From positions 3,348,001-3,412,000 of the forward strand of contig NZ_CP027712.1 in the NCBI RefSeq assembly GCF_003945765.1: a stretch of 64,000 bases of DNA. Reading direction: 5' to 3'. A program made the translations under genes and the position numbers. This DNA is from Pseudomonas chlororaphis subsp. chlororaphis. Lineage in GTDB: Bacteria; Pseudomonadota; Gammaproteobacteria; Pseudomonadales; Pseudomonadaceae. The first letter of the stretch is position 1, and every line of letters starts with the position of its first letter. Shown here piece by piece: positions 16,747 through 40,505 of this stretch. The notes under the pieces were generated by a model that was not told the origin of the DNA, made no database searches, and worked only from the letters and a program-made list of their open reading frames with translations.

Positions 16747-17679
16747 TTATTCGGTCATCAGCACCTCTGGCGAAACCACCCATACGCTACAAGGCACCTT
16801 GTACAGCAGTTGCTCCACCGTGCTGCCGATCAGGCGCCCCAAGCCACCGCGATGACCGACCCTGCCCATGACAATCACATCGATGTCATAGGCGTCTGCG
16901 TAGCTGGTCAGGACCTTGGCCGGATTGCCCATGATCATGTGCTGACGTTCCGGCGCAATGCCGTTGCGTTCAGCCAGTTCGTTGAAGGCGTCGCCTTGGG
17001 CATCGAACAGAGTCTTGGCCTTGCTTGTCGAGAAAAATGTCGAACTCTGGTCGAAGTTGAATTCGTCCGCGCCGATGGAGGACAGGTCATGGGCATAGAT
17101 CACGTCGAGCTCGGCGTTACAGGCGCTGGCCAGTTTCGAGGCCTCGTGCAGTATCCGGTCGTTGAAGTCCTTGTACTGACCCTCGCGGTGGAACGGGTCG
17201 ACCGCTGCGACGATCCTGCGTGGCAATGCGTGCTGTACATGGCTGACAAAGTGCAGGGGCACGGGGCATTCGCGCAGCAAGTGGATATCCAGGGGAGTGA
17301 ACATTACCCGCGACAGCAGCGATTCGTGTTGCAGTGCCTTGATCAGCAAGGCCATGGGCTGCTCCTTGAGGTGGATCAGGATTTCCTGCAAGGGCCTTTC
17401 GACCCAGACGACTTCAGTGGTGACGGTCAGCCCCAGTTTGCGCAGCGGCCGGGCCTGTTCTTCGAGCCACTGGTGATGGCGCTCGACGTACCCCAGGCGC
17501 ATCTGCTCCAGGGCCTGTTCGTTGACCAGGCTGGCCGTGGCCAGGCCTTCCAGGTAGTCGAAGGCGACGATGTGCAGGGCTGCGTCTTCGGCCTTGGCCA
17601 GCGCGGCGGCACGATCGAAGGCGGGGCTGTTCTCCATCAGCGGCGAGGCGACCAGCATGAAACGTGATTGCTCGGACAT
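16747..17679 (-). CDS. Tandem-domain universal stress protein (Usp 1 of 5)
   Basis: 310 residues, two UspA domains in series (UspE-like), the first opening SRFMLVASPLMENSPAFDRA. The C-terminal domain ends MGRVGHRGGLGRLIGSTVEQ, which keeps the full G-2X-G-9X-G(S/T) ATP-binding motif. Of the five paralogues in this window only this copy has the second glycine. The ATG at 17679 was chosen for its GGGAGAG ribosome site; the longer frame to 17784 is not family-like. A perfect ANR-type box lies 170 bp upstream and is shared with the divergent alcohol dehydrogenase. Confidence 0.92.
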   Translation of the reverse strand: MSEQSRFMLVASPLMENSPAFDRAAALAKAEDAALHIVAFDYLEGLATASLVNEQALEQMRLGYVERHHQWLEEQARPLRKLGLTVTTEVVWVERPLQEILIHLKEQPMALLIKALQHESLLSRVMFTPLDIHLLRECPVPLHFVSHVQHALPRRIVAAVDPFHREGQYKDFNDRILHEASKLASACNAELDVIYAHDLSSIGADEFNFDQSSTFFSTSKAKTLFDAQGDAFNELAERNGIAPERQHMIMGNPAKVLTSYADAYDIDVIVMGRVGHRGGLGRLIGSTVEQLLYKVPCSVWVVSPEVLMTE

Positions 17680-17848
17680 GACGACTCTCCCAGGGGTAAT
17701 AGCAAGTGACGGCAACGCGTCTTCGGCCGTGAAGCCCTCTGCGATCCTGCCTGCAGCCGGCGGTGCGCGCTTGATCTGTATCAACCTGTCCGGCAGTGGA
17801 GCGGGCCAGCTGACGTGTGGTCAGTCGCGAGGGGCCATTGATGAATTA

Positions 17849-17862
17849 TTGATCATGATCAA
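17849..17862. promoter_or_regulatory. Perfect ANR/FNR box
   Basis: TTGATCATGATCAA, an exact TTGAT-N4-ATCAA palindrome, 75 bp before the alcohol dehydrogenase ATG at 17937 and 170 bp before the divergent Usp start. Confidence 0.88.
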
Positions 17863-17936
17863 GCCCAGGCCCTTGCTCCTGGCGCAGCCTGAAAGCCTTG
17901 CCGGGCTCAGCGCGGGCTCAAGGTTGGAGGATCGTC

Positions 17937-19010
17937 ATGGCTACCATGAAAGCGGCAATTTTCGTTGAAAAGAACCGGATCGTGCTCGATGAAAAGCCGA
18001 TCCCCGAAGTGGGGCCGCTGGATGCCCTGGTGCGTATCACCACGACGACGATCTGCGGCACCGATGTGCACATCCTGCGGGGCGAGTACCCGGTGGCCAA
18101 GGGCCTGACCATCGGTCATGAACCGGTGGGTATCATCGAGCGGCTGGGCTCGCAGGTGCGCGGTTTTGTCGAGGGACAGCGGGTGATTGCCGGGGCCATC
18201 ACGCCCAGCGGGCAAAGTTATGCCTGCTTGTGCGGTTGCGCTTCCCAGGACGGCCCGGACACCCGCCATGGCTTTCGCGCCATCGGCGGCTGGAAGTTCG
18301 GCAACAGCATCGATGGCTGCCAGGCCGAGTACGTGCTGGTGCCGGATGCCCTGGCCAATCTGTGCCCGATCCCCGACGGCCTCAGCGACGAACAGGTGCT
18401 GATGTGCCCCGATATCATGTCCACCGGGTTTTCCGGGGCAGAGCGTGGTGAGGTCAGTATCGGCGATACCGTCGCGGTATTCGCCCTGGGGCCGATCGGC
18501 CTCTGCGCGGTAGCCGGCGCGCGGCTCAAGGGTGCCAGCCAGATCATCGGCGTGGATGCCGTGGCCGAGCGCATGACGGTCGCCAAACGCCTGGGAGCCA
18601 CCCACGTGGTCAACTTCAAGGACGGTAACGTGGTCGAGCAGATCATGGCGCTGACCGATGGCCGTGGCGTCGACGTGGCCATCGAAGCGCTGGGCACCCA
18701 GGGCACCTTCGAGTCCGCCTTGCGCGTCTTGCGGCCAGGCGGGCGGTTGTCCAGCCTCGGTGTCTATTCCAGCGACCTGCACATTCCCCTCGACGCCTTC
18801 GCCGCCGGGCTGGGCGACTACAGCATCGTCAGCACCCTGTGCCCTGGCGGCAAAGAACGCATGCGCCGCTTGATGGCGGTGGTGCAAAGCGGCGGGGTCG
18901 ATCTGTCGCCCCTGGTGACCCACCGTTTCAAACTCGACGATATCGAAGCCGCCTATGAGTTGTTCGCTCACCAGCGGGACGGGGTCATGAAGGTGGCGAT
19001 TACCCCGTGA
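17937..19010 (+). CDS. Zinc-dependent alcohol dehydrogenase (CbADH-like)
   Basis: 357-residue medium-chain dehydrogenase. Catalytic zinc ligands sit in TTICGTDVHILRG and IGHEPVGIIE. The structural-zinc cysteine cluster is not in its usual CxxCxxC form, as in the Clostridium beijerinckii NADP-dependent secondary alcohol dehydrogenase group, which also shares GWKFGNSIDGCQAEYV and STLCPGGKERMRRL. The Rossmann loop is VFALGPIGLCAVAGARL. Probably reduces ketones or aldehydes, or oxidises secondary alcohols, under low oxygen. The start has GGAGG upstream. It leads a plus-strand group with the next two genes and has a perfect ANR-type box 75 bp upstream. Confidence 0.92.
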   Translation: MATMKAAIFVEKNRIVLDEKPIPEVGPLDALVRITTTTICGTDVHILRGEYPVAKGLTIGHEPVGIIERLGSQVRGFVEGQRVIAGAITPSGQSYACLCGCASQDGPDTRHGFRAIGGWKFGNSIDGCQAEYVLVPDALANLCPIPDGLSDEQVLMCPDIMSTGFSGAERGEVSIGDTVAVFALGPIGLCAVAGARLKGASQIIGVDAVAERMTVAKRLGATHVVNFKDGNVVEQIMALTDGRGVDVAIEALGTQGTFESALRVLRPGGRLSSLGVYSSDLHIPLDAFAAGLGDYSIVSTLCPGGKERMRRLMAVVQSGGVDLSPLVTHRFKLDDIEAAYELFAHQRDGVMKVAITP

Positions 19011-19051: not shown

Positions 19052-19294
19052 ATGATCATCGACATCACAGCGAAACCGACAGGCCATGGCTGGCTCGTGC
19101 ACATGGATGCCCTGACAGTGGGCTTCAGCAGCCTGGAAGCCGCGACGGCTTTCGTCGGTCAACTCCGGGCGCGCATCGATGCGCCGCATCCCTGGCCGAC
19201 CAGCCCTGGCCAGACGGAGGCCCCCCCTCGGACAGTCGGCGACCGATCCGCTCCGGCTACCAGGAAGGGGGCTTGCCCTGGCCTGCTGAAGTGA
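19052..19294 (+). CDS. Small hypothetical protein
   Basis: 80 residues from an ATG with a good GCGGAGG site; the open frame from 19007 overlapping the dehydrogenase is less likely. The first 45 residues (MIIDITAKPTGHGWLVHMDA) look like a small beta-alpha domain, and the remainder is Pro/Arg-rich and probably disordered. It sits 41 bp after the dehydrogenase and 43 bp before the MgtC-like gene, so it is likely co-transcribed. I do not recognise the family. Coding status rests on position and ribosome site. Confidence 0.6.
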   Translation: MIIDITAKPTGHGWLVHMDALTVGFSSLEAATAFVGQLRARIDAPHPWPTSPGQTEAPPRTVGDRSAPATRKGACPGLLK

Positions 19295-19337: not shown

Positions 19338-20576
19338 ATGAGCGCGACCCTTGGCCTGGAAGGCGCGGCGGCTGCGCTGGGAATCGGCTTGCTCATCGGT
19401 CTGGAGCGCGAGCGGCACAAGGGGCGAGGAGACAGCCGTGCCTGTGCGGGGTTGCGCACGTTCGCCATTACCGCGCTGCTGGGGTATGTGGCGATGCAGG
19501 TCGGTGGTGCCCTGTTGCTGGGGATCATGGCTATCTGCCTGGCCTTGCTGATCACCGTGGCGTATTGGCGAAGCCTGGGCAGCGACCCGGGCGTGACCAG
19601 CGAAGTGGCGTTGCTTACAGTGCTGGCGCTGGGGGCTATGTGCGGTACGGCGCCGGAATTGGCGATTGCCATTGGCGTGGTCATGGCGGGGCTGCTGACG
19701 TATCGACAAAAGTTGCATCACTTCGCCCGCAGTCAATTGAGCGAAGCGGAAATGCGCGACGGGCTGGTACTGCTGATCGCCGCGCTGGTTGTGCTGCCGC
19801 TGGCACCGGATCGTTACATCGGGCCTTATGCCGCCATCAATTTGCGCACCATCTGCACCCTGACTGTGTTGCTGATGGCCGTGGGTGCGGTAGGGCATAT
19901 CGCCGTTCGCACCCTGGGCACTCGTTACGGTTATGCGATCAGTGCCATTGCTTCGGGGTTCGCCTCCAGCACGGTGACCATCGCCGCCATGGGGCATATC
20001 GCTGCCAGAGAGCCGGACAACATCAAGGCCCTGGGCGCGGCGGCGTTGTTCTCCAACCTGGCCACCCTGACCCAGGTGGGCCTGATCCTGGGCGCGGTCG
20101 ATACCGGTCTGCTGCACCCTATGTGGGGGCCGCTGTTCGCCGGCGCTGCCGCCACGGCATTGTATGGCCTGTGCCTGATGTTCCCCACGCCGGCCCAGGG
20201 CGCCCACCAGCCGATCAAGGTCGGCGGCGCGTTCAACCTCAAGCTGGCCTTGCTCGTCACGCTGGCCATGACGGGTATCACCTTCCTGTCGTCGGTGATG
20301 CTGAGTCACTTTGGCGAAGTCGGGGTGATGGTGACCGCGACCCTTAGCGGTTTTGCCGACGCCCATTCCTCGACAGCGTCGATAGCCTCCCTGGCCAAAT
20401 CTGGCCAGTTGCCGTTCCAGGCCATCGCCGCGCCCGTGCTGATCGCGGTCAGCAGCAATTCCCTGAGCAAATGCCTGGTGGCCTGGGTCAGTGGCGGGCG
20501 CCGCTTCGCCGCCTATGTCATTCCCGGCCAGGTATTGCTGACGCTGGCGATGTGGGCCGGCATCTGGCTGTACTGA
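19338..20576 (+). CDS. MgtC/SapB and DUF4010 membrane protein
   Basis: 412 residues, nearly all membrane helices. The N-terminal MgtC/SapB half (about 1-140) contains GIGLLIGLERERHKG, with the conserved ERE, then RTFAITALLGYVAMQ. The C-terminal DUF4010 half (about 180-412) contains SGFASSTVTIAAMG, GFADAHSSTASIASL and SNSLSKCLVAW. The family is found in many bacteria. Its transport or regulatory function is unsettled, and MgtC itself inhibits the F-ATPase and supports survival at low magnesium. It is a likely member of the ANR-controlled dehydrogenase transcript. It ends 106 bp before the next Usp. Confidence 0.88.
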   Translation: MSATLGLEGAAAALGIGLLIGLERERHKGRGDSRACAGLRTFAITALLGYVAMQVGGALLLGIMAICLALLITVAYWRSLGSDPGVTSEVALLTVLALGAMCGTAPELAIAIGVVMAGLLTYRQKLHHFARSQLSEAEMRDGLVLLIAALVVLPLAPDRYIGPYAAINLRTICTLTVLLMAVGAVGHIAVRTLGTRYGYAISAIASGFASSTVTIAAMGHIAAREPDNIKALGAAALFSNLATLTQVGLILGAVDTGLLHPMWGPLFAGAAATALYGLCLMFPTPAQGAHQPIKVGGAFNLKLALLVTLAMTGITFLSSVMLSHFGEVGVMVTATLSGFADAHSSTASIASLAKSGQLPFQAIAAPVLIAVSSNSLSKCLVAWVSGGRRFAAYVIPGQVLLTLAMWAGIWLY

Positions 20577-20595
20577 AACCTGTCGCTTCGGGTAG

Positions 20596-20609
20596 CTGAC
20601 AAAGATCAA
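20596..20609. promoter_or_regulatory. Degenerate ANR-like box
   Basis: CTGAC-AAAG-ATCAA: the downstream half is exact and the upstream half has two mismatches. It lies 74 bp before the Usp ATG at 20683, the same spacing as the perfect boxes elsewhere in the island. Confidence 0.5.
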
Positions 20610-20682
20610 GTCACCCGGCCCGGGAACGCTCAATCTGCAATTCCATTCCGTGTTCTGAGATGGCCGCGTGCCGAGGTGCCTT

Positions 20683-21600
20683 ATGTCGCAGACCCAGCGT
20701 TTACTGCTAATTGCCCCTCCCGCCATGAACCGCACACCGGCATTCGACCGCGCTGCGGCGCTGGCCCGGGCGATGCAGTTACCCTTGCATATCGTGGCGT
20801 TCGATTATTTGCAGGCGCTGGCGGTGGCCGGCCTGTTCGCGCCCGAACAGATCGCCCAGGCCCGGGACGGGTATCTGCAAAGCCATCGGCAGTGGCTTGA
20901 CGAGCAGGCTCGCTCGATGAGCGAACAGGGGATCGAGGTCACCCGCGAAGTGGTCTGGGTGCAGCATCCGTTCGAAGAAATCCTGCACTTCGTCAATGAG
21001 ATGCCCCTGGCCCTGATCGTCAAGGATGCCGAAGAAGAGCCTGCCTTGAAGCGCGTGTTTTTCACTCCCCTGGATTGGCAGTTGCTACGGGACTGTCCGG
21101 TACCGGTGCACCTGGTGACCAATGCCCTCAACCCACGGCCACGCAACGTACTGGCCATCGTCGATGTTCTGCGCAGCGATGAGCAGGACAGGGTGTTCAA
21201 CGACCAGATTATCGACGCCGCGGTAAAGCTGGCCGGGCAATGTGCCGCGGCACTCGAGCTGGTGCATGTGTATGACTGGGCCGCGGTGTATGCCCAGGAC
21301 ATGGGGGTTGGCGTGCTGCCGCTGAGCGTCGGGATCTACCAAGTGTTGGGCGAGGCGCAATTCGAGGCATTCGCAGCGCTGGCCGAACGCCATGGCGTGC
21401 CTCCAGAGCGTCGCCATTTCATCGAGGGTACGCCGCTGTCGTGTATCTGTGACTTTGCGACTGCCCACCGGACTGACGTCATTGTCATGGGAACCGTGCA
21501 GCACAAGGGACTGAAAAAACTCTTGGGCAGCACCGCCGAGCAGCTTTTGCACCGGGCTCCGTGCAGCGTACTGGCGATAAAACCGGACAAGACGCTTTGA
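20683..21600 (+). CDS. Tandem-domain universal stress protein (Usp 2 of 5)
   Basis: 305 residues, opening QTQRLLLIAPPAMNRTPAFD, a leader shared with the other copies. Two UspA domains; the second ends MGTVQHKGLKKLLGSTAEQL, in which the second glycine of the ATP-binding motif is replaced and one residue is missing, so nucleotide binding may be altered. The segment HRQWLDEQARSMSEQGIEVT in domain one is closely matched in the paralogues. The ATG at 20683 has CGAGGTG upstream. Convergent with the GNAT gene, with a stem-loop between them. Confidence 0.93.
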   Translation: MSQTQRLLLIAPPAMNRTPAFDRAAALARAMQLPLHIVAFDYLQALAVAGLFAPEQIAQARDGYLQSHRQWLDEQARSMSEQGIEVTREVVWVQHPFEEILHFVNEMPLALIVKDAEEEPALKRVFFTPLDWQLLRDCPVPVHLVTNALNPRPRNVLAIVDVLRSDEQDRVFNDQIIDAAVKLAGQCAAALELVHVYDWAAVYAQDMGVGVLPLSVGIYQVLGEAQFEAFAALAERHGVPPERRHFIEGTPLSCICDFATAHRTDVIVMGTVQHKGLKKLLGSTAEQLLHRAPCSVLAIKPDKTL

Positions 21601-21656: not shown

Positions 21657-22220
21657 TTACAGGTGGAGGCGATGGATGACCTGGCGGCTGTCGTCGGGAT
21701 CGTGACTCCGTTCGAAACCCAGGGCCTTGGCCAGGTCGCGCATGGGCGCATTGCTGGCGGCGTCGATCGAATACATCTGGCGAAAGCCATTCTTGCGGGC
21801 AGCCTCGATCAGATGCTCCATCAATAAGGTTCCCAGGCCCAGGTGCGTCCATTCGTCGGCGACGGTTACCGCGCATTCGCATTCGTGCTCGCCCGTGGCG
21901 GCGTAGCGGCTGATACCGATCTCGATCAGTTGTCCGTTCTCATGAGCCAGCGCGACGTAGGCCATGTGCTGCTTGCCATCGGTGTACATCAACTGATCGA
22001 GCAGGGCGCCACTGGGGTCATTGATCTGGGCGAGGAAACGCATGTGCCTGGATTCGGGAGACAGACGCCTGATAAAGGCGTACTCCCGCTCGCGGTCCTT
22101 TTCCGCCAGTGGCCGGATCAGCACATGATGGCCGTCCTTCAGCGTTTCGATCCAGTGTTCTCCGGGGACCGCGGCGTAGACGGCGGCGGCCCGTTCGTTG
22201 TGGTTTTTGACAGTGAGCAT
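21657..22220 (-). CDS. GNAT-family N-acetyltransferase
   Basis: 187 residues. GNAT motif A is AVTVADEWTHLGLGTLLMEHLIEAARKNG (split: the acetyl-CoA pyrophosphate loop is WTHLGLGT), and REYAFIRRLSPESRHMRF is the N-terminal conserved part seen in the acetyltransferase domain of bacterial protein acetylases. The preferred ATG is 22220, preceded by GGAGAACCCC; an in-frame ATG at 22235 is possible. It is a single-domain enzyme, unlike Pat fusions with CoA-ligase domains, so it may acetylate proteins or a small amine. It has its own ANR-like box 87 bp upstream. Confidence 0.88.
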   Translation of the reverse strand: MLTVKNHNERAAAVYAAVPGEHWIETLKDGHHVLIRPLAEKDREREYAFIRRLSPESRHMRFLAQINDPSGALLDQLMYTDGKQHMAYVALAHENGQLIEIGISRYAATGEHECECAVTVADEWTHLGLGTLLMEHLIEAARKNGFRQMYSIDAASNAPMRDLAKALGFERSHDPDDSRQVIHRLHL

Positions 22221-22306
22221 GATGGGGTTCTCCATACGGCCGAAAGGGGCCGCGCGGCAGGGCACACGCGGTTCGCTTCGTTTTACCCCGCTGATGACAG
22301 GCGGAT

Positions 22307-22354: not shown

Positions 22355-22368
22355 CTGATGTAAATCAA
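22355..22368. promoter_or_regulatory. ANR box (Usp side)
   Basis: CTGATGTAAATCAA, one mismatch from consensus, 75 bp before the Usp ATG at 22443. This divergent region therefore holds two separate boxes, one suitably spaced for each gene. Confidence 0.75.
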
Positions 22369-22442
22369 GCCGCTTGCCGGCGCACAAGGCGCACTCTTGG
22401 CCTATGCCGGCCGGTTCGACCGGTGCCTGAGCGAGGTGTGTG

Positions 22443-23339
22443 ATGGGGCATTACCAACGTTTGCTGCTGATCGCCGATCCAACCCTGCATCAGTCGCCAG
22501 CCTCGCTGCGGGCTGTCGCGCTGGCCAAGGCCAGCGGGGCGGCGCTGCATGTACGCGGCTTCGCCGAGCCGGCGCCGGTGGTGCATCTGTGGGAAGAGAG
22601 AATCGACGAGGCGGGCTATCAGCGTTATCTGCGTCGCCATCGCCGATGGGTGGCCGAAGAAACCCAGCGGCTCGGCGACCTGGGGCTGGAGGCGACGGTC
22701 GACGTGTTGTTCACCACCCATCCGCTGCTGGACATCCTGAAGACGGTCGAAGAGCTCGGTCCGGACCTGCTGATCAAGGATGTCAGCCTGGAACCGCTGC
22801 TCAAGCGAGTATTCATCACGCCCCTGGATTGCCATCTGTTGCGTGAGTGCCCGATCCCCGTGCATCTGGTCAATCAGGCCCGTTACGGGTTGCCGCACCG
22901 GGTCGTGGCGGCGGTGGACCCATTCGATCCACCGACCCAGATCAGCGGCCTGAACGACACCATCATCCAGACGGCCAACGTCCTGGCCTTGCAATGCGAT
23001 GCGCCACTGCACCTGCTGTACGCCTATGACTTGTCGCCTGCCTTCAATGGCGATGCACCGCTGGTCAGCGGTGGCTGGGGCATGGACGTCGTCGAAGAGC
23101 TGCGTGAGTCCTTGCACCTGGCGTTCGTCACCCTGGCGGAGCGTTATGCCATCGCGCCGGAACGCCGGCACTTTGTCCCGGGCCCGCCAGTGCCCGCGAT
23201 CGGCGACTTCGTCGAGCAGTACCTGGCCGATGTGGTGGTGATGGGGACTGTGCATCGGGTGGGAATCGACCGCTTGATCGGCAGCACGACCGAACGGGCG
23301 CTGTACTCGGTGCCGGGCAGTATTCTGGCGGTCAGGTGA
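22443..23339 (+). CDS. Tandem-domain universal stress protein (Usp 3 of 5)
   Basis: 298 residues with the same two-domain plan (opening GHYQRLLLIADPTLHQSPAS). The C-terminal motif reads MGTVHRVGIDRLIGSTTERA, again without the second ATP-motif glycine. HLLYAYDLSPAFNGDAPL sits in the same place as HVYDWAAVYAQD in Usp 2, a paralogue-specific insert before the second domain. The start ATG at 22443 follows GCGAGGTGTG, and a GTG directly before it is possible. It ends 12 bp from the stop of the convergent alcohol dehydrogenase. Confidence 0.93.
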   Translation: MGHYQRLLLIADPTLHQSPASLRAVALAKASGAALHVRGFAEPAPVVHLWEERIDEAGYQRYLRRHRRWVAEETQRLGDLGLEATVDVLFTTHPLLDILKTVEELGPDLLIKDVSLEPLLKRVFITPLDCHLLRECPIPVHLVNQARYGLPHRVVAAVDPFDPPTQISGLNDTIIQTANVLALQCDAPLHLLYAYDLSPAFNGDAPLVSGGWGMDVVEELRESLHLAFVTLAERYAIAPERRHFVPGPPVPAIGDFVEQYLADVVVMGTVHRVGIDRLIGSTTERALYSVPGSILAVR

Positions 23340-23351: not shown

Positions 23352-24335
23352 TCACGGAGTGAGTACGATTGCCCCGTTGAACTGACCGGCCCGCAGGCGC
23401 TCCAGGGCCTGATTGGCATCCTCCAGGGCGAAACAGGTGACGTCGCAGTGGACGGGGGTGTGCTGCAATTCTGCGAAAAACGCTCTGCCGTCTTCACGGG
23501 TCAGGTTGGCCACCGAGCGCACGCTGCGTTCGCCCCAGAGCAGTCGGTAAGGGAATGCCGGGATGTCGCTCATGTGGATGCCGGCGCAAATCACGCAGCC
23601 GCCCTTGACCGTGACGGCCAGCGCCGCCGGCACCAGCGAGCCGACGGGGGCGAAGATCAGGCTGGCATCGAGCGGGTGCGGCGGTGCTTGATCCGAGGGA
23701 CCGGCCCAACGGGCCCCCAGCGACCGGGCATAGTCCTGGCCCGCGCGGTCATCGGGCCGGGTGAAGGCATACACCTGCTGCCCCCGGCCCAGCGCGACCT
23801 GGATGGCCAGGTGCGCTGCCGCTCCGAAACCGTAGAGGCCCAGGTGGCGCACATTCCCGGCCATCCGCAGCGCCCGAAAGCCGATCAGCCCGGCACACAG
23901 CAACGGCGCGGCCTGGGTGGCCGAGAGCGCTTCGGGAATCGGCAGGCAGAAACGGGCGTCGGCGACCGTGTAGTCGGCGTAGCCGCCGTCCAGGTGACAG
24001 CCGGTAAATTGTGCCTGGTCGCACAGATTTTCCCGGCCGGTGCGGCAGAACGCGCATTCGCCGCATGTCCAGCCGAGCCATGGAACGCCCACCCGCTGGC
24101 CGATCCAGTCGGGCGCGACGTCGGCGCCCACCGCGGTCACCTGGCCAACGATTTCGTGGCCGGGCACTCGTGGCAGCAGCGCCTGGGGCAACTCGCCATC
24201 GACCAGATGCAGGTCGGTGCGGCAGACGCCGCAGGCCAGGACTTTGATCAGCAGTTGCCGGGGGCCGGGTGTCGGGACCGGGCGTTGTTCCTCTCGCAGC
24301 GGCTCGCCGGGGGTATGCAGGACCATGGCGCGCAT
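23352..24335 (-). CDS. Zinc-dependent alcohol dehydrogenase (AdhA-like)
   Basis: 327 residues. Catalytic zinc is bound by CGVCRTDLHLVDG and VPGHEIVGQV, and structural zinc by CGECAFCRTGRENLCDQ with all four cysteines. The nucleotide-binding loop is LYGFGAAAHLAIQVALG. This group oxidises primary alcohols or reduces aldehydes, often with broad specificity. It starts 23 bp after the FNR-like gene in the same direction, so the regulator and this enzyme are probably one transcript. The ATG at 24335 has GGAGAGTCGTC upstream, the same ribosome-site context as Usp 1. Confidence 0.93.
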   Translation of the reverse strand: MRAMVLHTPGEPLREEQRPVPTPGPRQLLIKVLACGVCRTDLHLVDGELPQALLPRVPGHEIVGQVTAVGADVAPDWIGQRVGVPWLGWTCGECAFCRTGRENLCDQAQFTGCHLDGGYADYTVADARFCLPIPEALSATQAAPLLCAGLIGFRALRMAGNVRHLGLYGFGAAAHLAIQVALGRGQQVYAFTRPDDRAGQDYARSLGARWAGPSDQAPPHPLDASLIFAPVGSLVPAALAVTVKGGCVICAGIHMSDIPAFPYRLLWGERSVRSVANLTREDGRAFFAELQHTPVHCDVTCFALEDANQALERLRAGQFNGAIVLTP

Positions 24336-25105: not shown

Positions 25106-25276
25106 GCCAGTAAGCCCTCTATTGGTGGGTGAAGCATAGTTCCTGGGCATGGGCAAGGCGCGCCATTCGGCTGCTTGCCGGGAGGACGCGACGAATGGAA
25201 CCGCCCCGACCGGAGAGGCATTGCCGGACATCGATAGAAATGTTGCGTCATTCAATTTCAATGGTGCCTGCGCAAC

Positions 25277-25290
25277 TTGATGTAAATCAA
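25277..25290. promoter_or_regulatory. Perfect ANR/FNR box
   Basis: TTGATGTAAATCAA inside the longer palindrome-like CTTGATGTAAATCAAG. It is 68 bp before the phosphoketolase ATG and 172 bp from the regulator's own start, so autoregulation is possible. Confidence 0.88.
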
Positions 25291-33338: not shown

Positions 33339-35681
33339 ATGACGGACAACGGTTTTCACAGCGCTGAATGCGAATCGCTTTTTGAGGAACTCTCCTCGAT
33401 GTTCGGCAAGTGGCTGAACCCGGTGCTATTGCTGTTCTGCGTCCTGACGCTCCTGGCCGGTGGCGTTGCACATATGGCGCAGAAGCCTGGCTGGGCATCG
33501 CTAGGCTGGGCCGCAGGCAGCCTGGTGATGGCCCTGGTCCTGCTCGTCGAGATTGCCCGGCGCCTGGCCCGGCGCGAGGCGGGTGTAGACCTGATCGCGC
33601 TGATGTCGATGGTCGCCGCCCTGGCCCTGGAGCAGATGCTGGTGGCGGCGGTGATTGCCTTGATGCTGGCTACCGGACGCACCCTGGAGTTCTTCACCAG
33701 GCAACGCGCCGAGCGCGAGCTTCGCGCGCTCATCGATCGGGCACCACGTTTTGCCTGGCTGCAGGAGCAGGGCGGCTTACGCAGGATCCCGGTCGAACAG
33801 ATCCAACCGCAGCAGACATTGCTGGTGCGCCTGGGGGAGGTGATACCCGTCGATGGTCGCCTGCTGAGTCCCGCGGCCATCCTGGACGAATCGGCGCTCA
33901 GCGGTGAGTCGTTGCCGGTAACCCGTCGTAAAGGTGAGCAACTGCCCAGTGGCGTATCCAATGTCGGTGCACCTTTCCTGTTAACCGCCACGCGAACGGC
34001 AGCGCAAAGCACCTATGCCGGGATAGTGCGGCTGGCGGAGACGGCACGACGCTCGCGCGCACCTTTTGTGCGCCTGGCCGACCGCTATGCGCTGCTGTTC
34101 ATTCCGCTGACCTTGCTGATCGCCACCGTAGCCTGGCAAATGAGTGGCGATCCCTTGCGGGTTCTGGCGGTTCTGGTGGTCGCCACACCATGCCCGTTGA
34201 TCCTGGCGGTGCCGATTTCCATCATGTCAGGCATTTCGAGGGCGGCGCGGCGCGGGATATTGATCAAGGACGGCACGACCCTGGAGGCGTTGGCCGGGAT
34301 CAGGCAGGTATTTCTCGACAAGACCGGCACACTGACCAGCGGCCATGCGCGCCTGCAGTCGATAGAGGTCAACGGGCTGGCCAATCCTCAGCACCTGCTT
34401 GGCCTGGCCGCCTCGCTGGCGCAGGCTTCGACGCACCCGATCTGCCAGGCAATGGTCGAGGCGGCACATCAACGCCATTTATCACTCAGCGTTCCGCGGG
34501 AGGTGGAGGAACATCCTGGCTCGGGGCTTTGTGGCCTGGTCGAAGGCCGGCGCGTGCGTTTCGGCACCTTGTCTTTTGCTCATGAACAAATGCCCGTGAC
34601 TGACTGGACCACGGCCATGCTGCGCCACATGGATTACCTGGCCTGTAGCGGCAGCTTCATCGACGTGGACGGGACGCTGGCTGGCCTGCTGGTGTTCTCG
34701 GATAAGGTGCGCCGAGAAACCCCGCAAACCTTGCGGCGATTGCGCAACCGAGGCATCGAGAAAATCGTCATGCTCACCGGGGACCGCCTGGAAACCGCCG
34801 AGATGATTGCCCTGTCTGCCGGGATAGACGAGCTGCGAGCCGGGTTGACTCCCAAGGATAAAGTGCAGGCTGTCCAGGAGGGCTGCCAGCGCGCCAGCAC
34901 ACTGATGGTCGGCGACGGCATCAACGATGCCCCCTCGCTGGCGGCGGCCAATGTCGGTGTGGCGATGGGCGCCAGCGGTGCCACGGCGTCTGCGCAAGCG
35001 GCGGGTGTCGTATTGCTGGTCGATCGCCTGGACCGTCTGGTCGATGCGCTGGACATCGCTCGCCGGACCTGCCGGATCGCCCGGCAGGGCGTATGGGTCG
35101 GCATGGGCATGTCATTGCTGGCCATGGTCGTGGCTGCGCTCGGTTACCTGCCACCACTTGTCGGCGCCGTTGTGCAGGAGGGCATTGATGTGTTGATCAT
35201 CATCAACGCCCTGCGTGCATTGGGGCCTCTACAGGCAATGGGCCCACGAAAACTAGCCGCAGAACATATCGATCGCCTGCAAGACGAACACCAACAACTG
35301 GCCGCAGTGCTGAGCGATCTGCATCAACTGGCCAGTGACTTTTCGCGGCGCCCCCTTGAGCAGGCACAGGCCGACTTGCTGGAACTGCTTGGAAAGCTGC
35401 AGACATCGCTGGCGCAACATGAGCGAGACGATGAAAACACCCTGTACCCGCTGTTGAATCGAAGCCTGCCGGGCGAGGACCCCCTGTCGACGATGAGCCA
35501 CGCTCACCGGGAGATTTTTCGCCTTATCCATTTGCTGGCACGTATGAGCGCCGATTTCAGCGCCGACCCCGCCACGGCTCCCGCCGAGGCGATTCAGCAT
35601 CAGTTGATTCGCCTGGATACCCTCGTGAGGCTGCATTTCGATCAGGAGGAAGAGCTGTACCGTTATCTTGACTGGCGCTAG
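33339..35681 (+). CDS. P1B-5-type metal ATPase with C-terminal hemerythrin domain
   Basis: 780 residues. Transmembrane metal motif TPCPLILAVPISIMSG (about 283), which is TPCP rather than the CPC of copper pumps, then the phosphorylation loop DKTGTLTSGHA (about 326), a hinge-type GDGINDAPSLAAANVGVAMG, and no N-terminal metal-binding domain. From about residue 640 comes a hemerythrin/HHE domain (LQDEHQQL, QHERDDENTLYPLL, SHAHREIF, HFDQEEELYRYL). This is the P1B-5 layout; the known rhizobial example (Nia) moves nickel and iron. The ATG at 33339 is in frame; the earlier start at 33084 lies inside the upstream gene and is not coding. Confidence 0.93.
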   Translation: MTDNGFHSAECESLFEELSSMFGKWLNPVLLLFCVLTLLAGGVAHMAQKPGWASLGWAAGSLVMALVLLVEIARRLARREAGVDLIALMSMVAALALEQMLVAAVIALMLATGRTLEFFTRQRAERELRALIDRAPRFAWLQEQGGLRRIPVEQIQPQQTLLVRLGEVIPVDGRLLSPAAILDESALSGESLPVTRRKGEQLPSGVSNVGAPFLLTATRTAAQSTYAGIVRLAETARRSRAPFVRLADRYALLFIPLTLLIATVAWQMSGDPLRVLAVLVVATPCPLILAVPISIMSGISRAARRGILIKDGTTLEALAGIRQVFLDKTGTLTSGHARLQSIEVNGLANPQHLLGLAASLAQASTHPICQAMVEAAHQRHLSLSVPREVEEHPGSGLCGLVEGRRVRFGTLSFAHEQMPVTDWTTAMLRHMDYLACSGSFIDVDGTLAGLLVFSDKVRRETPQTLRRLRNRGIEKIVMLTGDRLETAEMIALSAGIDELRAGLTPKDKVQAVQEGCQRASTLMVGDGINDAPSLAAANVGVAMGASGATASAQAAGVVLLVDRLDRLVDALDIARRTCRIARQGVWVGMGMSLLAMVVAALGYLPPLVGAVVQEGIDVLIIINALRALGPLQAMGPRKLAAEHIDRLQDEHQQLAAVLSDLHQLASDFSRRPLEQAQADLLELLGKLQTSLAQHERDDENTLYPLLNRSLPGEDPLSTMSHAHREIFRLIHLLARMSADFSADPATAPAEAIQHQLIRLDTLVRLHFDQEEELYRYLDWR

Positions 35682-35739
35682 CCGTGTGAGGCCGGCCCCA
35701 GCATTTGACGGCACTCGTCATCTGTCATCCGTACATTGG

Positions 35740-36049
35740 CCTTTATGCGTGGCGTTGGGCGCGAAATCGAAATCCAGTGCTGATTCAGAATAAGTGGGGC
35801 AATCCGACGGTCTGCAATGATGACGTGACGATCGCCAAACGCATCCGCAACGTTGTCGCGGGAGCCAGCGCGATCGACCTCAAGCGCGGCCTGGGCCTGG
35901 GGTTGTCGTTGGTCGTGGCGTCGCTCCAGGCCCAGTCGCGGCCGGTGGGCACGCCCAGGGAAAAGGCACAGGTGGCCTCGCTGTCGGCGCATAACGATGC
36001 CGTCATCGGTCAACTGGTGGCTGATGCGCTGCGCGGGTACTTGATATAA
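35740..36049 (+). pseudogene. Decayed groEL-like chaperonin fragment
   Basis: An open frame from 35705 contains VLIQNKWGNPTVCNDDVTIA (GroEL has the start of the apical/equatorial part as xDKSFGAPTITKDGVSVA), then RNVVAGASAIDLKRGL (GroEL VAAGMNPMDLKRGI) and AQVASLSAHNDAVIGQLVAD (GroEL [20 protein letters not shown]), ending at a stop. The roughly 50 residues that should lie between the first two blocks are missing, and the part before KSKS reads in another frame (VALGAKSKS at 35749, two bases out of phase). The order of segments and partial deletion mark it as a remnant, not a small protein. It ends at the ANR box. Confidence 0.8.
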
Positions 36050-36054
36050 ATCAA
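36041..36054. promoter_or_regulatory. Perfect ANR/FNR box
   Basis: TTGATATAAATCAA, an exact match, 126 bp before Usp 5. It overlaps the last codons of the groEL remnant. Confidence 0.85.
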
Positions 36055-36179: not shown

Positions 36180-37064
36180 ATGAGCCAGTATCAACGGTTA
36201 TTGCTGATCATCAACCCGGCCCTGCGTCACTCCCAGGTCATGAACCATGCCGCAGCCCTGGCCAAGGCCAGCGGAGCGAGCCTGCATGTCTGTGCCTTGA
36301 TGCCTTCCTGGAAACTCTTGGCATTGCTCGAAGAAGGCGACCGGAAAAAGGCGCGCGCGGATTACCTGCAAGACCATCGCGACTGGCTCAAGGAACAAGC
36401 GAAAAATATGCGTGACAGGGGGCTGGTGGTGACGACAGAGGTGGCCTGGGCCGATGACCTGCAGCAAGACATTCTCGATCACGTCATGGAGATGCAGCCC
36501 GACCTGCTGATCAAACAAGTGCAGCACGAACCGGCACTCAAGCGCGCTTTTTTCACCCCGCTGGATTGGCGTTTGCTGCGCCATTGCCCGATACCGATCT
36601 ATCTGGTTGGCGAAGGTGGCCATGCGATGCCGCGCAAGGTGGCGGCGGCGGTCGATGCTTCGAGTAGCGATCCACAGGGCGACGAGCTCAATGAGCGGAT
36701 CATCAAGCAGGCCTGCGACCTTGCCATGCAGTGCGACGCCGAGCTGCACCTGCTGTATGCCTGCGATATTTCAGCCGCCTATCTGGCCGACATGGGCGGG
36801 CTGACACTTGCCGACCTCACTAGAGAGCAGCGCAGGGACATGGAAAAGTCGTTCCTCAAACTGGCCGGTCGGTATGGCGTGTCCTCTGACCGCCGGCATT
36901 TCATCCAGGGACACCCCGTTCCGGTGCTGAGCGAGTTCGCCCATCAGCAACAGGTGGATGTGATCGTGATGGGCCGAGTCCAGTCCCGGGGCCTGGATAA
37001 ACTGCTGGGCAGCACGACCGAACATATCCTCTATCAGGTGCCTTGCAGCGTCTTGGCGATATAG
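36180..37064 (+). CDS. Tandem-domain universal stress protein (Usp 5 of 5)
   Basis: 294 residues opening QYQRLLLIINPALRHSQVMN. It resembles Usp 3 most (LHVCALMPS and LLYACDISAAYLADMGGL). The C-terminal motif is MGRVQSRGLDKLLGSTTEHI, again lacking the second ATP-motif glycine. A perfect ANR box is 126 bp upstream. Followed 59 bp later by the phosphoribosyltransferase gene, so the three plus-strand genes probably form one transcript. Confidence 0.93.
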   Translation: MSQYQRLLLIINPALRHSQVMNHAAALAKASGASLHVCALMPSWKLLALLEEGDRKKARADYLQDHRDWLKEQAKNMRDRGLVVTTEVAWADDLQQDILDHVMEMQPDLLIKQVQHEPALKRAFFTPLDWRLLRHCPIPIYLVGEGGHAMPRKVAAAVDASSSDPQGDELNERIIKQACDLAMQCDAELHLLYACDISAAYLADMGGLTLADLTREQRRDMEKSFLKLAGRYGVSSDRRHFIQGHPVPVLSEFAHQQQVDVIVMGRVQSRGLDKLLGSTTEHILYQVPCSVLAI

Positions 37065-37123: not shown

Positions 37124-37831
37124 ATGTCCAAGAGTCCTTCATTGCAAACCATCTTGCGCGATCGGGCAGATGCCGGTCGACGCCTGGTGGAGCCGTTGCT
37201 CGAATATGCCCATCGACCCGATGTCATTGTCCTCGCCTTGCCCCGTGGTGGTGTTCCGGTTGCCTATGAGGTGGCCAAGGCCCTGGACATTCGCCTGGAC
37301 CTGATGCTGGTCCGCAAGCTGGGCGTACCCTCGCGCGAGGAGTTCGCCATGGGCGCCATAGCCAGCGGCGGCATTCAAATCCTCAATGAAGACGCCCTGC
37401 GCGCCCATCCGGTCGATCAAGCCAGTTTCAATGCCGTGGTAGCGCGGGAAACGCAGGAGTTGTTGCGTCGTGAACAGGTTTACCGGGAGGGCCGTCCACC
37501 GTTGCGACTCAAGGATCAGGTGGTGATTCTGATCGACGACGGCCTGGCCACAGGCGCCTCGATGAAGGCGGCGATTCACGCGGTGCGTGCGCAAGCACCG
37601 GCGCGCATTGTCATTGCGGTGCCGGTTGCGCCGCTTGAGACAGTGGAGGCGCTGCGCAGCGAAGTGGATGAGCTGATCTGCCCGCTCACCCCCGAGTGGA
37701 TGATGTCGATCGGCTACTGGTACCTGGATTTTTCCCAGACGCCGGATACCGAGGTCATCGATCTGTTGCAGCGCGCCTGGCAACGGGAATCGGTTCCCGG
37801 CCCCTCGGCCCAGGAGTCTCGCGATGTTTGA
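37124..37831 (+). CDS. Phosphoribosyltransferase-family protein
   Basis: 235 residues. The PRPP motif VVILIDDGLATGASMKAA (about 130-147) is intact, and LALPRGGVPVAYEVAKAL and VRKLGVPSREEFAMGAI are the characteristic upstream segments of this stress-associated group. The base or acceptor is unknown. It overlaps the next gene by eight bases, so the two are translated together. In mycobacteria related PRT domains are fused to a dienelactone hydrolase or to an erythromycin-esterase-like domain, exactly the two gene types found next to it here. Confidence 0.9.
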   Translation: MSKSPSLQTILRDRADAGRRLVEPLLEYAHRPDVIVLALPRGGVPVAYEVAKALDIRLDLMLVRKLGVPSREEFAMGAIASGGIQILNEDALRAHPVDQASFNAVVARETQELLRREQVYREGRPPLRLKDQVVILIDDGLATGASMKAAIHAVRAQAPARIVIAVPVAPLETVEALRSEVDELICPLTPEWMMSIGYWYLDFSQTPDTEVIDLLQRAWQRESVPGPSAQESRDV

Positions 37832-38483
37832 ACCTCGATCTCGACAGCTGGACCTGGAGGGCATTGAACTATCAGCCGATTTGCGCCTGCCTCCGGGCGC
37901 TAGGGCGCTGGTGGTCTTCGCTCATGGCAGTGGCAGCGGCCGTTCAAGCCCACGCAATCGGTACGTTGCCGAGTCGCTGGCCAGGCACGGGCTGGGGTCG
38001 CTGCTGTCCGACCTGCTCACGGAGACCGAGCAACACCTGGATAACCGGACCCGGGAGCTGCGTTTCGACATCGCATTGCTTGCCAGGCGACTGACTGAGG
38101 TGATCGACTGGATCGGTCGGGACCTGGAGTTGCAATCACTGCGGATCGGCCTGTTCGGCGCAAGTACCGGTGCGGCCGCGGCGCTGCTGGCCGCAGCCGC
38201 ACGGCCGGATGTGGTGCACGCCGTGGTCAGTCGGGGAGGGCGAACCGATCTGGCGGGGCCTGTGCTGTCTCGAGTGAAGGCACCGACCCTGCAGATCGTT
38301 GGTGCACAGGATCCAGTGGTGTTCGGCCTGAATTGCCAAAGCAGTCGTGCCCTGCAGTGTGAGCAGCGCCTGGAAGTCGTGGCCGGCGCCACGCATCTGT
38401 TTGAAGAGCCCGGTGCCCTCGAGGAAGTCGCCAGGCTTGCTGGCGACTGGTTTGAGACGTATCTGCACGGCCCCGCTCCATAG
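37824..38483 (+). CDS. Alpha/beta hydrolase (dienelactone hydrolase-like)
   Basis: 219 residues. ALVVFAHGSGSGRSSPRNRY is the oxyanion-hole strand, IGLFGASTGAAAALL carries the nucleophile elbow GASTG (Ser), and PTLQIVGAQDPVVFGLN and VVAGATHLFEEPG supply the acid and the His. There is no signal peptide. Its start overlaps the phosphoribosyltransferase stop. The catalytic triad appears complete, so it is probably an active hydrolase of unknown substrate, working with the PRT. Confidence 0.9.
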   Translation: MFEPRSRQLDLEGIELSADLRLPPGARALVVFAHGSGSGRSSPRNRYVAESLARHGLGSLLSDLLTETEQHLDNRTRELRFDIALLARRLTEVIDWIGRDLELQSLRIGLFGASTGAAAALLAAAARPDVVHAVVSRGGRTDLAGPVLSRVKAPTLQIVGAQDPVVFGLNCQSSRALQCEQRLEVVAGATHLFEEPGALEEVARLAGDWFETYLHGPAP

Positions 38484-38503
38484 CTGGCATTCGTTGACCG
38501 GTC

Positions 38504-39871
38504 TCATACACCGAACGGAAAGGTTTCGTCTTCCGGTTCCAGCTCCTGGCTTTTCGGCAGCGGCAGCGCTTTTACCGGTTTCGTTTGCTCGATCCAGATC
38601 ATGGCGTCGAACTGTTCGGCCAGCACCGCTTCGAAGTAGTGACTGCCACGCTCGCTCTCGGGGCGATAAATCACACCGATGGCTCGCTCCAGCAAGGGTT
38701 TGGAAAGAGCGCGACGAAGTTCCTTGCGCTGTGGATCACGCCAGTCGGTCAATGACGCTGCAACGCCGGCCTTGAGGAACTGATACTCCCAGCTGTCCGG
38801 GCGCGACGGCCGGATGTCCTTGATCAACAGGTCACCATCCCAGTCGTCGGCCGCAGCCACCTGGCCACGATCGGTGCCCATGCCGATCAGAACGACCTCT
38901 CGCCCGAAGGCACTGCGGCACAGTTGACCGATATTGAACTGCCCCTTCCAGCCCATTTCCGTGGCCGCCGCATTGCCGATATGGGAATTGTGTGCCCAGA
39001 CCACGGCTTTGGCTTGCGGGCCTCGGTGTTCAAGCAGCGCGCGCAACGTGTCGAACATATGTCGGTCGCGCAGGTTCCAGGAGGCTGTCGAGCCTCGATA
39101 AATCGCGCGGTAGTATTGTTCCGCCGCCAGCACCACCCGGGCGTTTTGCGTCGCATCGAAGAACGCCTCGTCGTCCTTGATGAGCCCGGCCAGTTGCTCG
39201 GTCAGCAGGGTATTGAGCTGTTCGACCACTGGCTGCTCACAAGGCATCAGCCCCCCGCGCTCGACGAAGTGACCGTACAGCGCCGGGTCATCCTGCCAGG
39301 GCGTCAAGCAGCCATAGCGCCGGCGAGCTTCACGGGCCAACTGCGGGTCGACCCGGTCCAGATAGCTCAGGACTTCATGAATGGAGTTGCGCAAACTGTA
39401 AACGTCCAGGCCACGGAATTCGACGCGGCGCTGCGGGGCATGCTGGTGGTTGAATTGGTGCAGCCAGTGGGCGAACCCCTTCACTTCGGTGTTGCGCCAC
39501 ATCCAGGTCGGGAATCGGCTGAAGATATGGCGCTTCCAGGCCGAGTGTGCCAACCCGCGCACGTAACGATCGACATGGCTCGCGTCCGGCCAGTCTGCTT
39601 CAACGGCAACGATGTTGAACCCGTGCTGCTCGATCAGCCTTCGGGTGATCGCTGCCCGGGCTTGGTAGAAGTCGCTGGTGCCATGACTGGCCTCACCGAT
39701 CATCACCACGCGCGCATCCGCGTAGCGGTCGAACATTTCACCGAAAGCGGACGAATCCAGCTCCGGCAGGGGCTCGGCGTATTGGCGCAAGAGAGGGGTA
39801 ATGGCTGCCTGATCAATGTGCGCAGGCAAGCCGTACAGACTATCGAGCATGTCTTGGGAAGGGGTGTTCAT
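38504..39871 (-). CDS. Erythromycin-esterase homologue
   Basis: 455 residues from the ATG at 39871, which has GGGA nine bases upstream. An ATG at 39886 is also in frame. Family features: VVMIGEASHGTSDFYQARAAITRR, FNIVAVEADWPDASHVDRYV and KAVVWAHNSHIGNAA. These carry the conserved Glu-His pairs of the EreA/EreB superfamily, although true macrolide esterases are more divergent, and stress-island members have unknown substrates. It is convergent with the PRT-hydrolase operon and separated by 20 bp from its end. Downstream of hsp20, from which it is divided by an intrinsic terminator. Confidence 0.92.
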   Translation of the reverse strand: MNTPSQDMLDSLYGLPAHIDQAAITPLLRQYAEPLPELDSSAFGEMFDRYADARVVMIGEASHGTSDFYQARAAITRRLIEQHGFNIVAVEADWPDASHVDRYVRGLAHSAWKRHIFSRFPTWMWRNTEVKGFAHWLHQFNHQHAPQRRVEFRGLDVYSLRNSIHEVLSYLDRVDPQLAREARRRYGCLTPWQDDPALYGHFVERGGLMPCEQPVVEQLNTLLTEQLAGLIKDDEAFFDATQNARVVLAAEQYYRAIYRGSTASWNLRDRHMFDTLRALLEHRGPQAKAVVWAHNSHIGNAAATEMGWKGQFNIGQLCRSAFGREVVLIGMGTDRGQVAAADDWDGDLLIKDIRPSRPDSWEYQFLKAGVAASLTDWRDPQRKELRRALSKPLLERAIGVIYRPESERGSHYFEAVLAEQFDAMIWIEQTKPVKALPLPKSQELEPEDETFPFGV

Positions 39872-39914
39872 AGCGGTCATTCCCATCAGGATGGATTACC
39901 CGAGGCGTTGACAG

Positions 39915-39948
39915 CAAAAAGCCCCTTGCCGGTTTCCCGGCAATGGGC
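39915..39948 (-). terminator. Intrinsic terminator of hsp20
   Basis: On the minus strand, TTGCCGG-GAAA-CCGGCAA flanked by CCC/GGG pairing is followed by CTTTTT (the A-run 39916-39920 on the plus strand). It ends the hsp20 transcript before the esterase gene. Confidence 0.85.
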
Positions 39949-39962
39949 AGGCTGGCCCGGCT

Positions 39963-40505
39963 TCAATCGGCCTTGATCGGCACGACTTTCTCCGCCTTCA
40001 TGGCTTCGGGCTTTTTCGGCAGCGAAATGCTCAGCACGCCTTTGCTGAAGCTGGCTTCGATCTTCTCGGCATCGACCCCCTTGGGCAGGTTGAACATCCG
40101 CTCGAAGGAGCCGTAGTGACGCTCGCTGAGGTGATAGCCTTTTCTTTTCTCTTCCTTGTCCTCTTTCTTTTCACCCTTGATGATCAGGCAACCGTTGGAC
40201 AGCTTGATCTCGATGTTCTTCTGATCCATGCCCGGCAGCTCGGCGGAAATCTCGAAGCTCTTGTCTTTCTCGGTAATGTCCACGGCAGGCAGGCTATGGC
40301 CGATCAATTCCCGCCGCCAGAGCGGATCGACATCGAACAGTCCGCGACTGAAGGGCGACAGGCTGGAGCCGCGATTGAAATCTTCGAACAGGTGATCGAC
40401 TTGTTGCCGCAGTTTTTCCAGGGGCCGCCACAGGTCTGTCGTCAGCGATGGCTGACGGGCCTTGTCTTCAGTCGTTACTGGCATTTTTTTCACGGAATTG
40501 CTCAT
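39963..40505 (-). CDS. hsp20: Hsp20 small heat-shock protein
   Basis: 180 residues. An N-terminal arm with LRQQVDHLFEDFNRG, then an alpha-crystallin domain (about 70-165): LPAVDITEKDKSFEISAELPGM at its start, LIIKGEKKEDKEEKRKGYHL, ERHYGSFERMFNLPKGVDAE and FSKGVLSISLPK (the G-V-L motif). A short C-terminal tail lacks an obvious IxI motif. It is a cytoplasmic holdase that prevents aggregation. The ATG has AAGAGGAGTAG upstream. An ANR-like box lies 78 bp upstream. I saw no ROSE-type hairpin in the 5' region. Confidence 0.95.
   Translation of the reverse strand: MSNSVKKMPVTTEDKARQPSLTTDLWRPLEKLRQQVDHLFEDFNRGSSLSPFSRGLFDVDPLWRRELIGHSLPAVDITEKDKSFEISAELPGMDQKNIEIKLSNGCLIIKGEKKEDKEEKRKGYHLSERHYGSFERMFNLPKGVDAEKIEASFSKGVLSISLPKKPEAMKAEKVVPIKAD

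Follow-up and report, generated by a model that had tools for sequence, protein, structure and literature searches.

A window of 64,000 nucleotides from Pseudomonas chlororaphis subsp. chlororaphis, lying on the single contig that forms this 6.81 Mb genome, was analysed for the stress genes between positions 16747 and 40505 (all coordinates are those of the window unless a locus is named) and for the FNR-type regulator encoded among them. Comparison of sequences indicates with good confidence that the region belongs to the lxa/FixK2 type of low-oxygen survival island; here Anr would be the main activator and the local FNR a second tier acting on the same boxes. The island is a new example of a type described in Burkholderia and in nitrogen-fixing bacteria, not a new invention. 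No earlier description of the gene set in Pseudomonas was found in the literature searched, most subscription papers being outside its reach.

Gene families were assigned to the window proteins with Pfam, and with NCBIfam for several of them. All the families named in an earlier, sequence-only reading of this DNA were confirmed by Pfam: Hsp20, phosphoribosyltransferase (PRT), alpha/beta hydrolase, erythromycin-esterase family (EryE), P-type ATPase, FtsH, BON, phosphoketolase and two zinc alcohol dehydrogenases (ADH). The same reading described five tandem genes for universal stress proteins (Usp). Five Usp genes were found, but they encode double-domain proteins dispersed over 20 kb and form no tandem array. 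Their longest open reading frames (ORFs) span 16747-17784 (-), 20668-21600 (+), 22440-23339 (+), 30868-31791 (+) and 36180-37064 (+); for several genes of the region the likely start lies downstream of the longest-ORF start, and the coordinates below follow the likely starts. A GNAT acetyltransferase, a beta-CASP/RMMBL nuclease, an MgtC/DUF4010 protein, an OprI-like lipoprotein, a small ORF and a groEL remnant had been overlooked.

From the left, Usp1 (16747-17679, -) and ADH1, a zinc alcohol dehydrogenase (17937-19010, +), are preceded by the FNR boxes TTGATCTGTATCAA (17771-17784, centred at -98.5 from the likely Usp1 start) and TTGATCATGATCAA (17849-17862, centred at -81.5 from the ADH1 start). 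Usp1 alone among the Usps carries the ATP-binding pattern G-x2-G-x8-10-G[ST]. ADH1 is conserved more than its neighbours, at 88-96% identity in the fetched Pseudomonas loci that hold a full-length copy. It is followed by the small ORF (19052-19294, +; 80 residues, no family), which by eye resembles a cluster present in 10 of 66 fetched loci and whose relative at L034:18520-18789 had no match in a Pfam search, and by the MgtC/DUF4010 membrane protein gene (19338-20576, +). Usp2 (20683-21600, +) has the box CTGACAAAGATCAA (20596-20609) centred at -80.5, and Usp3 (22443-23339, +) the box CTGATGTAAATCAA (22355-22368) centred at -81.5. The GNAT acetyltransferase gene between them (21657-22265, -) is preceded by a degenerate palindrome at 22307, centred at -48.5. 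ADH2, a zinc-binding dehydrogenase of the adh_fam_2 type (23352-24335, -; NCBIfam TIGR02822, ATG at 24335), lies next to the local FNR gene (24359-25105, -). The box TTGATGTAAATCAA (25277-25290) stands between this gene and that for phosphoketolase (XFP; 25358-27733, +), at -74.5 from the phosphoketolase ATG and -178.5 from fnr.

The right half of the region begins with genes for an FtsH-family protease (27737-29596, -; NCBIfam TIGR01241) and a triple-BON protein (29651-30298, -), the latter with the box TTGAGCTAAGTCAA (30384-30397) centred at -92.5. The gene for the OprI-like alanine-zipper lipoprotein (30534-30788, +; 84 residues, PF11839, E 9.2e-11) has the box TTGATAAAGATCAG (30442-30455) centred at -85.5, and Usp4 (30871-31791, +) directly follows it. 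An ORF at 30438-30980 (-) was rejected as a gene: it overlaps the lipoprotein gene and belongs to no Pfam family, although tblastn gave matches of 37-56% at the same place in some loci. The beta-CASP/RMMBL nuclease of the metallo-beta-lactamase fold (31889-33277, +) is preceded by the box TTGATAAAAGTCAA (31815-31828) centred at -67.5; its protein scored 371 bits against the NCBIfam model for the type VII CRISPR nuclease Cas14 (cut-off 800) and 276 bits against aCPSF1. The ATPase gene (33339-35681, +) comes after the beta-CASP gene and has no box directly upstream. A pseudogene remnant of a groEL paralogue (35705-36049, +), to which GroEL was matched in two separated pieces, is represented by much longer GroEL-like open frames at the corresponding places in loci L018 and L059 and in genome G103. 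Usp5 (36180-37064, +), which resembles UspE and matched UspE structures, has the box TTGATATAAATCAA (36041-36054) centred at -132.5. The genes for PRT (37124-37831, +), a dienelactone-hydrolase-like alpha/beta hydrolase (37824-38483, +), EryE (38504-39886, -) and Hsp20 (39963-40505, -) complete the region, and the box TTGATTTAGGTCAG (40583-40596) is centred at -84.5 from the Hsp20 start. EryE is not identified as a macrolide-inactivating Ere esterase, as its best score against the NCBIfam EreA/EreB/EreD models was 45.8 bits and the cut-offs are 750-800.

The FNR boxes, which had been described as visible in the sequence, are real and enriched. With at most one mismatch to TTGATN4ATCAA, the window has 10 sites, shuffled sequence 0.94 on average, and none of 100 shuffles reached 10. 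Five of the genome's 20 perfect sites fall in 16747-40505, where 0.07 would be expected; with the pattern TTGAYN4RTCAA the region holds 6 of 43 genomic sites (0.15 expected). By this pattern the island and a stretch around 3.98-4.00 Mb, which has 7 sites, show the two highest site densities of the genome. One of the five perfect boxes, at 35193, was rejected as a promoter element and is probably a chance match, because it lies within the ATPase coding sequence.

Retention of the boxes was scored in 60 loci retrieved with the local FNR as query, together with up to 10 kb of flanking sequence to either side; 58 of these are from Pseudomonas, Halopseudomonas or Stutzerimonas, and besides FNR no island gene was seen in the other two, L061 (Burkholderia) and L063 (Paraburkholderia). 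A box with at most one mismatch was sought in the region from -260 to +60, where the 320-nt interval was complete, before orthologues of at least 50% identity (the lipoprotein being exempt) whose alignment started within the first 45 residues; the ATPase was left out because its alignments begin too far in. All orthologues of Usp1 (37/37), ADH1 (16/16) and beta-CASP (20/20) were boxed, as were most of those of XFP (23/24), BON (10/11), Usp3 (31/36), Usp5 (21/27), GNAT (31/41), fnr (41/54), the lipoprotein (10/14), Usp4 (29/43) and Usp2 (28/43). Seven flanking genes used as controls had a box in 0 of 51 cases, and the reversed pattern gave 2 matches over all genes. Around fnr the order of the island genes varies between loci while most of the genes keep their boxes: 80 distinct adjacencies were counted among 20 island genes in the 60 loci, and only 6 among the 7 control genes, which were visible in just 7-8 loci. 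Certain blocks stayed together, namely Usp4 with beta-CASP (18/18), ADH1 with Usp1 (16/16) and BON with FtsH (8/8). Recombination at the boxes was considered as the cause of the shuffling. Homology between XFP-type and Usp4-type loci begins inside fnr (median +33), but pairs of Usp4-type loci gave a similar value (+27), so the comparison has no discriminating power.

The local FNR has all four cysteines of an FNR cluster (C16-x2-C19-x5-C25 and C118). It scored 229.2 bits against the NCBIfam Fnr subfamily model (cut-off 228), and its best solved relative is an FNR regulator (E 2.3e-52). In its recognition helix, E205-T-I-C208-R209, a cysteine takes the place of the serine of E-x-x-S-R; serine stands at this position in E. 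coli FNR (PMC4505428) and in the strain's own Anr, which is 42% identical to the local protein. The four cysteines were kept in 54 of 61 aligned rows (L007-L066). A serine replaces the third cluster cysteine in L055, and the remaining rows without the four cysteines are contig-edge or broken fnr copies (L050, L060, L064, L066). The recognition-helix cysteine was found in 55/55 aligned rows with letters at that position. PP_3287 of P. putida KT2440 has the same cysteine for Ser212 and still acts on a consensus box, and by their published description both it and PP_3233 are, like the local regulator, [4Fe-4S] FNR proteins (PMC4505428). The window protein differs from PP_3287 around the second cluster cysteine, with Asn before it and Ser rather than Arg after it. 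The local FNR is probably a PP_3287-type paralogue that is less sensitive to oxygen than Anr.

Genome G103 has three FNR genes inside a 38 kb stretch that also holds phosphoketolase, Hsp20, PRT, beta-CASP, Usps, the ATPase with hemerythrin domain, BON, FtsH, EryE and the hydrolase. Two of these FNRs agree with PP_3287 in its reported Arg and Cys, and the third has the Ala and Ser described for PP_3233, which would make them orthologues of those proteins and G103 a P. putida-like strain. Two local-type FNR genes were also seen about 27-31 kb apart on one contig in each of two other genomes (G101:C53 and G139:C1).

Most transcription units of the island are boxed, with the box centre usually 65-100 nt upstream of the start codon, a placement that would suit an activator acting near -41.5 of a promoter whose leader is about 40 nt long. 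In the mechanism proposed here, FNR-type proteins would keep their [4Fe-4S] clusters as oxygen falls, dimerise, bind the boxes and switch the units on. Phosphoketolase and the alcohol dehydrogenases would then serve fermentative ATP formation and redox balance, and the Usps, Hsp20, FtsH, BON and the lipoprotein the maintenance of proteins and envelope; the metal ATPase and the cassette of PRT, hydrolase and EryE would be switched on as well. Anr, which is encoded elsewhere in the genome, would be the main activator, and the local FNR would form a second tier on the same boxes. The region had been called a hypoxia/NO survival package. Since FNR boxes mark a set of stress genes, a low-oxygen package is probable, and it may serve survival.

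The closest systems were sought by matching the window proteins to named replicons with tblastn; the lxa type was represented by lxa-like loci of Burkholderiales other than B. cenocepacia J2315, whose lxa genes are BCAM0275-BCAM0323. The island shares with the lxa/FixK2 type its clustered Usp, Hsp20, BON and ADH stress genes, boxes before many units and a gene of the FNR/FixK type in the locus. The lxa locus likewise has Usps, Hsp20, BON and an FNR-type regulator, and an FNR-box-like motif is found at many of its induced genes (PMC6127331, PMC4505428); it is induced by low oxygen and required for persistence in anoxia (PMC6127331, PMC9104464). In the lxa-like loci of P. phytofirmans, B. pyrrocinia and B. 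stagnalis, beta-CASP is 54-55% and FNR 44-47% identical to the window proteins, and BON is 37-39% identical in the first and last of these. The gene overlap is partial, and these FNRs have serine in the recognition helix (ETVSR) where the local FNR has cysteine. The B. stagnalis locus matches the ATPase with hemerythrin domain (48%), FtsH (47%), beta-CASP (55%), FNR (47%), BON (39%), Hsp20 (34%) and one Usp domain (30%); its 41 kb contain 15 boxes and no match to the reversed pattern. P. phytofirmans pOLGA1 has beta-CASP, FNR, BON, ADH and annotated Usps (13 boxes, 0 reversed). B. pyrrocinia has beta-CASP, two ADHs, FNR and SulP, with only 3 boxes, at -72.5 of beta-CASP and at -74.5 and -66.5 of two Usps. 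Only FNR and beta-CASP were matched in C. metallidurans CH34 (3 boxes), and Acidovorax T1 gave beta-CASP at 60%, a phosphoketolase match at 24%, 1 box and no FNR. The FNR neighbourhood of B. cenocepacia CMCC(B)23006 (L074) was rejected as an lxa locus, as it holds no other island gene.

Likeness extends to the alphaproteobacteria. S. meliloti pSymA has ADH1 (75%), BON (55%), the ATPase with hemerythrin domain (44%), beta-CASP (37%) and a partial Hsp20 (61%), with 12 boxes against 1 reversed, but its FNR-like match is only 27% identical. Hsp20, Usp and BON genes stand together on Bosea pB32-1, with a box at -63.5 of BON. FixK proteins are not known to carry the Fe-S cluster of FNR. In Bradyrhizobium, phosphoketolase, an MBL hydrolase, Hsp20, GroEL and Usp belong to the FixK2 regulon, with boxes resembling TTGAT-N4-ATCAA (PMC9104804). 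Alpha-, beta- and gammaproteobacteria thus have related hypoxia cassettes marked by FNR boxes of the same kind.

The ATPase belongs to the heavy-metal P1B class of NCBIfam and combines a P1B core with a C-terminal hemerythrin domain containing HxE, the combination expected of a P1B-5 protein. Its TPCP motif and hemerythrin HxE are common to the pSymA and B. stagnalis proteins, and both are described for P1B-5 ATPases (PMC9388753). The pSymA gene would, by its domains and replicon, be that of Nia, the P1B-5-ATPase of S. meliloti, which the window ATPase would then resemble in sequence, hemerythrin domain and motifs.

Several observations weigh against the reading of the region as a low-oxygen island under Anr and the local FNR. 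Box support was poor for Hsp20 (6/13), PRT (2/6), FtsH (5/17) and MgtC/DUF4010 (5/27), and no box was scored for orthologues of ADH2 (0/7), EryE (0/4) or the hydrolase (0/2); such genes would need read-through from their neighbours, and PRT, hydrolase and EryE may be transcribed from the promoters of Usp5 and Hsp20. Of the 19 genomes that have a local-type FNR, 9 lacked a box at the best Usp5 relative (10/19 boxed). L064 and L066 carry fnr in pieces, L017 has fnr alone and L060 only fnr and ADH1. The 60 loci were picked by FNR likeness and are mutually related rather than independent samples, and physical linkage alone could explain the co-occurrence of the genes. By tblastn the Burkholderiales share only part of the set (4-7 families in three loci, 2 families in C. 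metallidurans and 1-2 in Acidovorax). B. cenocepacia H111 has no lxa and yet withstands anoxia (PMC9104464), and islands of this kind are therefore not a general requirement. In P. putida, loss of PP_3233 or PP_3287 was reported to cause impairment in the presence of oxygen, not under oxygen limitation (PMC4505428).

The strongest competing explanation is control of the island by Anr alone, with the local FNR playing a minor part or acting on other targets. It was weighed in 149 Pseudomonas genomes, tallied by hand, with a local-type FNR defined by E <= 1e-70 (29 genomes) and beta-CASP by E <= 1e-100 (23 genomes). Orthologues of ADH1 with at least 81% identity had a box (at most one mismatch) in 11/11 genomes without a local-type FNR and in 9/9 with one; among distant relatives (66-71%) it was found in 0/5. 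Eight of those 11 genomes have a single FNR-type match at E <= 1e-40, G015 and G089 have a second match at that threshold, and G038 has a distant FNR at 48%. The ADH1 box can thus do without the local FNR, and Anr, which can probably serve it in the genomes without a close local FNR, is its likely common reader. Among the best Usp5 relatives (44-100% identity, partly paralogues; 30 of 47 listed matches had loci), 8/11 in genomes without a local-type FNR were boxed. In P. putida, the activity of a consensus promoter was 128 Miller units with chromosomal PP_3233 alone, 184 with PP_3287 alone and 8550 with ANR (PMC4505428). Set against this explanation, the local FNR travels with the gene set, beta-CASP being present in 20/29 genomes with a local-type FNR and in 3/120 without, and its four cysteines and helix cysteine have been kept as described above. 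The two P. putida proteins respond to oxygen on a consensus box, more slowly and with less sensitivity than ANR, and their response to NO is weaker than that of ANR (PMC4505428). Control by Anr alone is accordingly a tentative alternative with an appreciable chance of holding, and the region's "own Fe-S regulator" of the sequence-only reading stands as an FNR-type gene with four cysteines, its ownership of the boxes being unproven in view of ADH1. The island offers a plausible target set for the extra FNR proteins of pseudomonads, whose targets and inducing conditions were posed as open questions in PMC4505428.

A further reading would be a self-contained shuffling regulon, in which units of promoter and gene, most of them with a box of their own, are rearranged around a dedicated second-tier FNR, Cys208 is a second redox switch and fnr is driven through an element of its own. 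The cluster would then read oxygen, and the invariant Cys208 thiol, at a base-reading position of the helix, would read oxidants; C183 of FixK2 is the comparison case for a thiol switch at the DNA interface (PMC9104804). In the region upstream of fnr (25106-25255, -) a conserved CCRTTCGTCG stands about 50 nt before the -10-like hexamer CTATGCTT. Many of the 57 fnr promoters that were aligned contain this pair, whether the locus is of the XFP or the Usp4 type, and the exact combination occurs once in the genome. CCRTTCGTCG is possibly the operator of another regulator acting on fnr. Such a self-contained regulon is unlikely.

The sequence-only reading had likened the region to the DosR regulon of Mycobacterium, with a gene content assembled by convergence. 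A comparison of lxa with DosR is already published (PMC6127331). The likeness holds for the Usp, Hsp20 and PRT/EryE families, which are common to the Rv2028-Rv2031 operon; Rv2030c combines PRT and erythromycin-esterase domains and shares one operon with HspX (PMC4410610). In the window PRT, hydrolase, EryE and Hsp20 are adjacent (37124-40505) as separate genes, with no fusion. The likeness does not hold for the ATPase, which had been matched to CtpF. CtpF is a P2-type ATPase, and the P1B signature and hemerythrin domain show that the window protein is not its counterpart. PfkB, nitroreductase and Tgs1 are members of the DosR regulon, and none was among the window proteins scanned with Pfam. 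The regulator was correctly held to be unrelated: it is of the FNR type, the region has no DosR/DevR with DosS/DosT, and a TetR gene (16068-16706) and a histidine-kinase gene (45643-47010) merely flank the island. The gene lists are closer in Burkholderiales and S. meliloti, where BON, beta-CASP, ADH, FtsH, the ATPase with hemerythrin domain and FNR are shared with one or both groups.

Convergence itself is doubtful. A PRT-EryE fusion on a Rhodococcus plasmid is 51% (PRT) and 46% (EryE) identical to the window genes, with no FNR box in front. On alphaproteobacterial plasmids, a Bosea PRT-EryE fusion, annotated as two overlapping pieces, lies about 2.2 kb from two Hsp20 genes and has no box in front; on Novosphingobium pLA3 EryE, hydrolase and PRT are consecutive genes, and a box with one mismatch precedes EryE by 63.5 nt. 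In a protein search with EryE, the named rows among the best 120 of 7999 candidates were from Pseudomonas and near relatives, the best being 95% identical and from P. chlororaphis. The Rhodococcus identities and the Novosphingobium run suggest that part of the DosR likeness reflects shared descent or cassette transfer. Homologous cassettes placed under different regulators would be a better explanation of the likeness than convergence, and an independently assembled copy of the DosR regulon is quite improbable. The resemblance to the tuberculosis dormancy regulon appears to rest partly on shared cassettes, so that what is learnt from either system may help with the other. A loose neighbourhood of unrelated stress genes with boxes by chance, which would account for the genes without a conserved box and for the perfect box in the ATPase frame, is contradicted by the shuffle and genome-density tests and by the unboxed control genes and can hardly be correct.

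Other FNR boxes and genes were noted beside the island. The genome's densest cluster of TTGAYN4RTCAA sites, 7 in 23.4 kb (G000:C1:3979272-4002637), holds a NarX-like kinase, a NorR-like sigma54 activator and a Crp/Fnr protein; a search for NosZ gave nothing above the cut-off, and the region is therefore not called a complete denitrification cluster. Its genes suggest that DNR-type regulators may likewise recognise boxes of this kind. Genes of a potassium-channel-like (Ion_trans_2) cluster, for example L056:5983-6408, were present in 25 of 66 compared loci, and the P. phytofirmans island has an annotated potassium channel gene; none was seen among the scanned ORFs of the window. Downstream of the island, an ORF that belongs to no Pfam family (51478-51882, -) has a perfect FNR box (51939-51952) about 60 nt upstream of it, and a gene for a P-type ATPase with a YHS domain (47646-49922) is found nearby.

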